Under the pieces are notes generated by a model. That model made no database searches, was not told where the DNA came from, and saw only the letters and a list, made by a program, of their open reading frames with translations. DNA of 64,000 bases from Neisseria yangbaofengii (GTDB taxonomy: Bacteria; Pseudomonadota; Gammaproteobacteria; Burkholderiales; Neisseriaceae), in NCBI RefSeq assembly GCF_014898075.1, contig NZ_CP062976.1, forward strand, positions 2,356,001-2,420,000. Reading direction: 5' to 3'. Each line of letters opens with the position of its first letter. The first letter of the stretch is position 1. Position numbers and translations under genes: made by a program. This document shows positions 4,627 to 51,146 of this stretch, piece by piece.

Positions 4627-4686
4627 GGATTGAACTCAATCTGTGAATTATGTTCCAAACAAAGTTATTCCGTTTTTAATGAAATT

Positions 4687-5277
4687 ATGCTGAAAAAAAT
4701 TGCCGTATGTTTAGGGCTGGCCGTGTGGTCGGTTTTGTTGGTGTTTGTATGGCTGCTCTGGCAAGATTACAGTTATACCCGCCAAACCGTTGATTCAATC
4801 CGCCCTGCGGATAAGGCGGTGATTCTGTCGACCAAGGCGTATGAAAACGGCCGTCTGAATCCTTGTTTGGTGGCGCGGGTGCAGGCCGGTGCCGAATTGT
4901 ATCAAGCTGGAAAAGTGAAGGCACTGGTGATGAGCGGCGGAATTAACCGTGATCATCAATACGGTTCGCGCAATATGCAGGCTATTGCCGAGAAAATGGG
5001 TGTGCCGTCTTATGCCATCTTACAGGAAGATCAGTCTGCCAATACTTTTGAAAACATCATTTTCAGCCGCTCGAAAATTGAAGACAGCCGAAATGTGGTG
5101 ATTGTCAGCGCCGGTTTTCATCTGCCGCGCGCGCGTTGGATGGCGGAAAAACAATGGTCGCAGAACATCCAGCTTTATGCCGCACCGCATTGCACCGAGC
5201 CTCATGGCGGTTATGCCTATTCTCTGACCCGGGAAATTGCCGCTATTGTTAAAAACGGCTTAAAAGGGCATTATTAA
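4687..5277 (+). CDS. DUF218 (SanA/YdcF-like) membrane protein, copy 1
   Basis: A 196-residue protein of the DUF218/YdcF family, to which E. coli SanA (linked to envelope barrier function) belongs. One N-terminal membrane segment (about residues 5-27) precedes a Rossmann-like domain with the family motifs NPCLVARVQAGAELYQAGK, VMSGG and SAGFHLPRARWM. The biochemical activity of the family is not established. The ATG at 4687 starts the membrane anchor directly; a frame extension back to 4630 reads into the previous terminator and is not favoured. The second DUF218 gene at 5672 is clearly a paralogue, and the two are separated by a 200-bp palindromic repeat, suggesting a tandem duplication. Confidence 0.82.
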   Translation: MLKKIAVCLGLAVWSVLLVFVWLLWQDYSYTRQTVDSIRPADKAVILSTKAYENGRLNPCLVARVQAGAELYQAGKVKALVMSGGINRDHQYGSRNMQAIAEKMGVPSYAILQEDQSANTFENIIFSRSKIEDSRNVVIVSAGFHLPRARWMAEKQWSQNIQLYAAPHCTEPHGGYAYSLTREIAAIVKNGLKGHY

Positions 5278-5307
5278 CCTCTCGGTCGGTTTCAGACGGC
5301 CTGAGCT

Positions 5308-5509
5308 GTAGGAAATCGCCGGGTTGTTTACATTTTTTTATGCATAACGGCTTTTGTTTTTGCCTGAACGATTGTTTTAGGGTTTTCGGACGTTATCAAG
5401 AACCATGCGGCTTTGCCGTGCCTTTCGGCATTCTTGGCAACACCCGAAAATCCCGAAACCGGTCTTCAGACAAAAAAGGAAAAGTGTAAACAACGCCGGG
5501 ATTTTCTAC
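5308..5509 (+). repeat. 200-bp nested-palindrome repeat, copy A
   Basis: About 202 bp bounded by imperfect inverted ends: GTAGGAAATC at the left (5308) and GATTTTCTAC at the right, each followed inward by TTGTTTACA or its complement. An internal palindrome pairs 5380-5394 with 5439-5453 (two mismatches), nested around CAAGAA/TTCTTG and a GC-rich core. It is related to copies at 21352-21554 and 50859-51059. It begins 5 bp after an inverted uptake sequence. CCTGAG occurs on both sides (5300-5305 and 5511-5516), a possible target duplication. It carries no gene. It is not a Correia element, having different ends and interior. Confidence 0.8.
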
Positions 5510-5671
5510 ACCTGAGACTTGTGCAAACACTCCCCGTCTGTGGCACATTTCTTCGCTATGTGCCGCCCAAAAGCTTGTCTGTCTGGATGATACGTCTGCG
5601 CTTTCTGCGCTGCCCTCGTTTCGAACTGCACTTAAATCCAGGGTTTCCAAAGGCCTCTCCTTTTCCTTTTT
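5510..5671 (+). other. Leader region of the second DUF218 gene
   Basis: This 160-bp untranslated stretch follows repeat copy A. It contains a perfect 7-bp hairpin (GGCACAT 5542-5548 with ATGTGCC 5558-5564) and no convincing open reading frame. It may be the leader of the downstream gene or a decayed insertion; nothing more specific is visible. Confidence 0.35.
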
Positions 5672-6274
5672 ATGAAAATACACAAAATGTTGCTTTATCT
5701 TATCGTGATGGCGCTGCTGGCTTTTACTGCTGCGCTCTACGCCGTATACCGCGGCGAACAAAATGCCGTGCGCCAATCCGAGCATCATCCGCCTCACAAA
5801 GCCGATGTGGCGATGGTGTTGGGCAATATTGTCAACCGTCGCGGCAAGCCCAATCCGTGTTTGCGCAGCCGCGTGGAAGCCGGCGTGTGGCTTTATCGGG
5901 CGGGCAAAGCGGATTATCTGTTGATGAGCGGCGGCACGGATGCCGATGGCAGCAATCAAGCGGAAGTCATGCGTGATATGGCGGTGAAACTGGGCGTGCC
6001 GTCTGAAAACGTGTGGCTGGAAAACCAATCTGAAACCACCTATCAAAACATCAAATTCAGCACCCTGCTTCTAAAAGATCATCACGACATTATCATCGTC
6101 AGCGACGGTTTTCATTTACCGCGCGGCTTGTGGCTGGCACGGCATCAATGGCCGGAAAAAAACCTGCAAACCTTTGCCGGGCGTAATTGTGGCGATTCGG
6201 CGGCAGTGATGTGGCGCAAACGCGTTCGCGAAGTATCGGCGTGGGTGAAGGCGCTGGTGCTGGATCATGATTAA
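5672..6274 (+). CDS. DUF218 (SanA/YdcF-like) membrane protein, copy 2
   Basis: A 200-residue paralogue of the protein at 4687 with the same plan: an N-terminal membrane anchor (about residues 6-26) and a periplasm-facing DUF218 domain. Shared motifs are NPCLRSRVEAGVWLYRAGK, LMSGG and VSDGFHLPRGLWLARHQW. The two proteins are similar in length and motif spacing but diverged in sequence, so the duplication is not recent. The palindromic repeat and a 160-nt leader lie directly upstream. The role is inferred only from the family (envelope barrier or cell-wall precursor metabolism); no enzymatic motif can be assigned. Confidence 0.82.
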   Translation: MKIHKMLLYLIVMALLAFTAALYAVYRGEQNAVRQSEHHPPHKADVAMVLGNIVNRRGKPNPCLRSRVEAGVWLYRAGKADYLLMSGGTDADGSNQAEVMRDMAVKLGVPSENVWLENQSETTYQNIKFSTLLLKDHHDIIIVSDGFHLPRGLWLARHQWPEKNLQTFAGRNCGDSAAVMWRKRVREVSAWVKALVLDHD

Positions 6275-21328: not shown

Positions 21329-21351
21329 ATAATTTTCAGACGGCCTAAGGT

Positions 21352-21554
21352 GTAGGAAATCGCCGGGTTGTCACACTTTTTATGCAAAACAGTTTTTGTT
21401 TTTTGCCCGAATAATTGTTTCAGGATTTTTGAGCGTTATCAAGAGCCATGCGGCTTTGCCGTACCCTTCGGCATTCTTGGCAACACTCGGAAATCTCCAA
21501 ACGGGTCTTCAGGGGGAAAAAAGAAAAAGTGTAAACAACGCTGGGATTTCCTGC
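21352..21554 (+). repeat. 200-bp nested-palindrome repeat, copy B
   Basis: The same family as 5308-5509: left end GTAGGAAATCGCCGGGTTGT, right end ending GGATTTCCTGC. The internal stem pairs 21423-21437 with 21482-21496, with one mismatch and several G-T wobbles. It lies between the small membrane protein and the tannase-family lipoprotein, ending 43 bp before that gene's start codon. An inverted uptake sequence (21336-21347) abuts the left end, as at the other two copies. Confidence 0.8.
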
Positions 21555-21597
21555 ATCAATGATGGTTGGTACTTTCTTAAAATCAAAAGGTGAACCT

Positions 21598-50822: not shown

Positions 50823-50858
50823 ACCATATTGCCAATTAAAAAGGCCGTCTGAAATAAT

Positions 50859-51059
50859 GTAGGAAATCTCGGGTTGTTGATACTTTGTATGCAAAACAGC
50901 TTTTGTTTTTTGACTTAACGATTGTTTTAGGATTTTCGGGCGTTATCAAGAACCATGCGGCTTTGCCGTGTTTTTCGGCATTCTTGGCAACGCCCGGAAA
51001 TCCCAACACCGGCCTTCGGGCAAAAAAGAAAAAGTGTAAACAACGCTGGGATTTTCTAC
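50859..51059 (+). repeat. 200-bp nested-palindrome repeat, copy C
   Basis: Left end GTAGGAAATCTCGGGTTGTT, right end GATTTTCTAC. The inner stem pairs 50930-50944 with 50989-51003 (15 positions, all pairable if one G-U is allowed), then CAAGAA (50947-50952) with TTCTTG (50981-50986). It ends 87 bp before the FUSC-family gene and begins 5 bp after an uptake sequence at about 50842-50853. Of the three copies this has the best-preserved inner palindrome. Confidence 0.8.
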
Positions 51060-51146
51060 AGAATAGATCGACAGCAAATATCGATGCTTTTTCAGACGGA
51101 CTGGAGATTCCGTTTTAAAAACAATAAACCCCAAACCTTAATCTTT

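Follow-up and report, generated by a model that had tools for sequence, protein, structure and literature searches.

The three near-palindromic elements of about 204 bp that lie in the window, i. e., the 64,000-nucleotide stretch of Neisseria yangbaofengii DNA analysed here, are copies of a non-autonomous MITE family, and in some lineages this family has a strong, register-exact preference for the edges of uptake sequences (DUS), the short DNA tags by which Neisseria recognises its own DNA for uptake. Taken together, the observations are with good probability explained by a MITE that is mobilised by an IS481-like element through a 7-bp cut, with its insertions concentrated at DUS edges.

Elements and family

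A preliminary description had recognised the three elements by their imperfect inverted ends and a nested inner palindrome, and both features hold. The elements can be aligned over their whole length, reach one base further at each end than first noted (Table 1), carry TGTAG...CTACA-type ends, and fold far beyond shuffled sequences (−93.7, −86.3, and −83.0 kcal/mol for the 221-nt stretches holding copies 1, 2, and 3; z-scores of −8.8, −6.9, and −6.6 against dinucleotide shuffles). Their GC content is 43–44 % vs 52.6 % for the window, and they contain no transposase gene, as is usual for a MITE; two plus-strand frames of 64–65 aa are listed within or overlapping copy 2. An uptake sequence adjoins the start of each element, an adjacency that had been seen at the outset, whereas its role as an insertion target was missed. 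The orientation shared by the three copies is a property of the window and not of the genome, where the 30 best loci are divided into 18 on the plus and 12 on the minus strand.

Table 1. Positions of the MITE copies in the window, with their flanking heptamers, uptake sequences, and downstream genes.
Feature	Position	Strand	Remarks
MITE copy 1	5307..5510	+	204 bp, ends TGTAG...CTACA
Left target heptamer, copy 1	5300..5306		CCTGAGC; matches the right heptamer at 6/7
Right target heptamer, copy 1	5511..5517		CCTGAGA
AG-type uptake sequence TTCAGACGGCCT, copy 1	5291..5302	-	core abuts the heptamer, in register
Gene 3' of copy 1	ATG 5672	+	161 bp past the copy; DUF218
MITE copy 2	21351..21555	+	205 bp, right end CTGCA
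Uptake sequence TTCAGACGGCCT, copy 2	21335..21346	-	in register, identical to the copy 1 register
Heptamers, copy 2			left CCTAAGG, right TCAATGA; 3/7 match, duplication not preserved
Gene 3' of copy 2	ATG 21598	+	42 bp past the copy; earlier in-frame ATG at 21559
MITE copy 3	50858..51060	+	203 bp
Flanking heptamers, copy 3			GAAATAA / GAATAGA; 4/7 match
Uptake sequence AGGCCGTCTGAA, copy 3	50842..50853	+	opposite orientation, out of register
Gene 3' of copy 3	ATG 51147	+	86 bp past the copy; start picked by eye inside a longer open frame

A sequence profile found 28 full-length copies and seven partial matches in the 2.65 Mb genome of N. yangbaofengii (G000), where BLAST returned 45 matches, a number that includes hits to the second arm of the same element. 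Of 46 Neisseria genomes, 17 have BLAST matches, as do 4 of 37 from other Neisseriaceae genera (21/83 overall), although some of these matches are just fragments; N. weixii and N. dentiae are rich in the element. By BLAST and profile search it is absent from G020, a genome whose 655 dRS3 matches point to N. meningitidis. Other species were sampled by scoring at most 17 candidates per genome and taking 60 places. Copies that were partial (L011, L045, L136, L153) and those that were truncated or internally deleted (L026, L030, L058–L060) were omitted, leaving 89 full copies; a set of 87, without L098 and L099 of N. weixii, served for the background, reverse orientation, CTNAG, paired-DUS, age, and DUS-tail tests.

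Some further repeats were observed beside the family. L058, L059, and L060 (G000 positions 1050684, 1909705, and 47388) are short derivatives, two of which measure about 90 bp and have a similar central deletion ending in GGATTTTCTACA or GGATTTTCTGCA. At L061 (G000, ~1684000), a lone right end of the MITE stands beside an element that looks Correia-like by eye (TATAGTGAATTC...), so that two MITE families lie side by side. Element 1 is directly followed (~5514–5657 of the window) by a second repeat, some 145–155 bp long and with ends like GAGACCTTTGCAAAA, which is often abutted by the MITE. The corresponding stretch has 42 matches in N. weixii (G043), and 18 of the 42 start at query position 210–215, with the DUS included in the same register (TTCAGACGGCCTGA/GACC).

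Target duplication, empty sites, and a candidate parent

Exact 7-bp target duplications flank 13 of the 89 full copies (shuffles: mean 0.92, maximum 6), and exact agreement of the flanks at 6 or 8 bp is found in none of them. The other 76 copies lack an exact duplication, perhaps as a result of recombination between copies. Empty sites were found for two copies that have exact duplications, L019 (in N. weixii) and L022 (in both N. weixii and G016); in these, the joined flanks align through the junction, the heptamer is present in a single copy, and the DUS is intact. Where window copy 1 would lie, the upstream gene and TTCAGACGGCCT are present in G016 and the next gene starts eight bases on, the element and the adjoining second repeat both being absent. 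At the place of copy 3, G016 has both flanking genes with other DNA between them and no MITE, and the flanks of copy 2 gave no match in this genome. Owing to the duplications, the empty sites, the candidate parent described below, and the occurrence of copies on both strands, the elements are assigned to the MITEs, one of the options that had been offered in the preliminary description.

Following unpaired element-like ends in G000 led to copies of an insertion sequence (IS), all those found in this genome being degraded, and relatives of its transposase occur in 25 of the 46 genomes, several with open frames. Copies with paired ends mostly measure 873–878 bp (~876; range 852–944) and end in TGTARGAAA...GTTGTTTACA; TGT...ACA ends are a trait of the IS481 family. 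The transposase has integrase-core domains and matches IS481 best among NCBIfam families, with 180.7–193.1 bits for three near-complete proteins and 109.4 for a fragment, all of which lie below the curated cut-off of 224, hence the term IS481-like. The 26-bp ends are shared between the two elements, as expected of a MITE and its autonomous transposon: in N. dentiae, the left MITE end agrees with the 3' end of the IS at 25/26 and the right one with its 5' end at 23/26 positions, and in G000 the agreement is 21/26 at each end. The IS set comprised 59 loci, six without an end pair, and its 53 rows contained two duplicates (L076/L266 and L096/L275), giving 51 distinct places; at eight of these the flanking bases agree at 6 or 7 of 7 positions, a count that has no shuffle control. 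Judging from the ends and the length of the duplication, the IS481-like element probably moves the MITE in trans. Whereas IS481 is the closest transposase family, the candidate parent differs from it in its score, its length of ~876 bp, its 7-bp duplication, and, in some lineages, its preference for DUS edges. An IS481 element is mentioned for N. canis in PMC6202450. Degraded relatives of the IS481-like transposase also lie at 1835953–1836388 of G020, the probable N. meningitidis genome, in which the MITE has no match.

Insertion in register with uptake sequences

A copy was scored as in register if CCGTCTGAA, with one mismatch allowed, started directly beyond the heptamer in one or both flanks. 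This applies to 35 of the 89 copies and to 11 of the 13 with an exact duplication, as compared to 370 out of 96,438 windows taken between genes in the same loci (0.38 %, i. e., about 0.34 of 89 copies expected; these windows include the unmasked L098 and L099 and a few partial copies). The copies in register come from G000 (15/27), N. weixii (11/17), G016 (4/9), N. dentiae (4/13), and G045 (1/3), with none in G011 (0/7), G021 (0/7), or five further genomes (0/6); 54 of the 89 are out of register, and none of the three near-complete copies in other genera (G048, G057) is in DUS register by eye. An exact pattern search of the 46 genomes for a DUS, 0–30 bases, and an element or IS end gave a spacer of 7 in 29 of 56 inward matches, the next being 5 bases with five matches, and the reverse DUS orientation gave no comparable peak among the 87 copies. 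It is the left MITE end that mostly faces the in-register DUS (26 vs 10 for the right end in the 89 copies, p = 0.011), so the orientation seems directed.

One way to obtain such a pattern would be random insertion, with the DUS-adjacent copies surviving or spreading by transformation, and the preferential uptake of DUS-bearing DNA (PMC2397512) would favour this. Selection after insertion, however, should not set a register to the single base (spacer 7 in 29/56), the DUS is already present at the empty sites, and copies in register are not clearly younger than the others (mean divergence 0.088 vs 0.106, p = 0.28, 27 G000 copies), all of which makes this account highly improbable.

A stronger competitor is a MITE that merely prefers a short palindrome, NCTNAGN flanked by GG and CC, and hits DUS for their AGGCC and their abundance between genes. 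The heptamers do often fit CTNAG (CCTGAGA in 15 of the 29 spacer-7 matches), and two-thirds of the background intergenic AGGCC half-sites (248/368) are themselves DUS. Since AGGCC lies within the DUS, the half-site was also tested as the sole cause, and the remaining DUS tail is still enriched both with it (26:1 vs 248:120 in the background, p = 5e-4) and without it (11:136 vs 393:188,165, p = 3e-14; 11/147 vs 393/188,558); this background, too, includes L098, L099, and a few partial copies unmasked. Moreover, among the 34 copies of the 87-copy set that are in register, 19 have a CTNAG heptamer on neither side, and L016 and L027, which have exact duplications, sit at ATGCCGTCTGAA. This alternative is accordingly considered unlikely, albeit deserving of attention. 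Targeting of paired DUS (hairpins) was rejected, with an inverted partner at 15 of 35 in-register sides vs 94 of 226 background DUS.

For a MITE directed to DUS edges, the sequence of events may be pictured as follows. An IS481-like transposase would act in trans on the common 26-bp ends and insert the MITE by a 7-bp staggered cut, as evidenced by the duplications and empty sites. The target would be loosely palindromic, approximately GG-NCTNAGN-CC, with the DUS providing one half (AGG/CC) and its remainder (GTCTGAA) further raising the chance of insertion, such that insertions gather at the exact edge of an uptake sequence that is left intact. Because the register is fixed, we infer direct reading of the DUS by the transposition complex.

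For the IS, six of the 51 distinct places are in register, two of them beside the variant TTCAGACAG, and 45 are out of register, including 10 of the 11 in G006. In G006, one of the IS copies adjoins TTCAGACAG in this register and is flanked by an exact duplication, and the variant is the commoner form there (GCCTGTCTGAA 11 times vs GCCGTCTGAA three times in 26.9 kb of fetched DNA, overlapping loci counted). In G042, a copy without a duplication likewise abuts TTCAGACAG in register; both DUS forms occur twice each in 3.5 kb there, which does not establish a dialect. PMC3630211 describes a wadDUS dialect, in which a T is inserted into AT-DUS. It is conceivable, although tentative, that a transposon lineage evolved to read the host DUS as a landing signal and tracked its dialect between species, with new copies travelling beside the intact tag by transformation.

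Gene context, known repeats, and implications

The preliminary description had also considered a leader RNA or regulatory cassette, i. e., a transcribed, structured 5' region ahead of envelope genes. A plus-strand gene does follow each of the three window copies, which all lie in tandem ahead of it, and the hairpins are strong (z −6.6 to −8.8). Across 30 copies in G000, with genes called by a codon-usage script, 10 are in tandem with the element's direction (nine called and L008 by hand), seven opposed, nine between convergent and three between divergent genes, and one is unresolved. None lies inside a gene save L008, whose called frame crosses the element; there is a 38-bp overlap between L024 and a called gene, and L026 sits in what is presumably the remnant of an IS5-type transposase. 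A Pfam scan of 10 of the 20 gene starts within 400 bp of copies gave five neighbours that look envelope-related, three cytoplasmic ones, and two without a family. The families include DUF218, TonB plug, RDD, glycine zipper, and periplasmic binding protein as well as M24 peptidase, YiiD thioesterase, and P5C reductase, and a position ahead of envelope genes is thus no rule of the family. Two DUF218/SanA-like genes in tandem flank element 1 (4630–5277, recognised by eye, and 5672–6274).

Covariation, measured over 40 copies against shuffles by five measures, is weak and mixed as a sign of RNA function. Two measures are at the shuffled mean (pairs changed on both sides, 11 vs 11.5; pair types, 70 vs 72) and three are above it, two of them barely and all in a way that relatedness alone can produce: cells changed on both sides, 37 vs 20.7; covariation score, 0.118 vs 0.107; cells paired, 86.6 vs 86.1 %. 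The RNAalifold consensus reaches just −7.3 kcal/mol. Consensus scans gave one promoter-like site at copy 1 (0.5 expected) and two at copy 3 (0.6 expected) and no terminators around these copies, and the sole Rfam matches in the window at gathering score were RNase P and a tRNA, none at the elements. Gene context thus led to the rejection of the leader RNA, covariation being weak and mixed, and neither it nor the regulatory cassette is likely to hold; copies in both orientations, empty sites, and mixed contexts are largely the pattern that the preliminary description had named as speaking against it.

Correia/NEMIS elements are also short, palindromic, non-autonomous, and intergenic with a target duplication, which in their case is TA instead of 7 bp, and we know of no DUS register for them. 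They were ruled out by this duplication and by the ends, TGTAG...CTACA here as opposed to the TATAGTGGATTA type (PMC5039591); the preliminary description had not recognised them as Correia elements either. The ATR repeat of N. meningitidis resembles the MITE in being intergenic, about 183–206 bp long, present in 13–14 copies, and able to form a stem-loop (PMC2267715). It was compared by description, and the MITE profile has no relative in G020. GTAG REP/REPIN sequences are described as a GTAG tag on a palindrome of 20–40 bp. They are not known to leave a target duplication; GTAG is present in the MITE, but its palindrome of ~200 bp and its 7-bp duplications set it apart from them. Insertion sequences targeting REP palindromes, including IS1106 of the meningococcus (type 2 association), are similarly aimed at abundant intergenic repeats (PMC1525189); unlike these, the MITE is aimed at the DUS, in a single-base register and with no preference for paired DUS.

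The literature searched, which did not cover subscription papers, contains no report of DUS-aimed transposons or of this repeat, and neither is mentioned in the accessible parts of PMC3733652, PMC1525189, PMC3898611, PMC6202450, PMC2397512, PMC3630211, PMC7371117, PMC5039591, and PMC2267715. The MITE accounts for a repeat in several non-meningococcal Neisseria for which no name was found in this literature. DUS have been viewed as guardians that exclude foreign and selfish DNA (PMC2397512), and a transposon landing at the exact edge of a DUS that stays unbroken would make this barrier a vehicle. Its fixed distance from the DUS could let the MITE travel with natural transformation, and the preference may further aid its spread if the flanking DNA is taken up in this way. 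It would also be an example from nature of a target chosen through a short signal that is specific to the host and has dialects, and part of the debate on whether DUS are selfish or protective becomes testable by insertion assays. If true, this would be a selfish element that exploits its host's own signal for sexual isolation.
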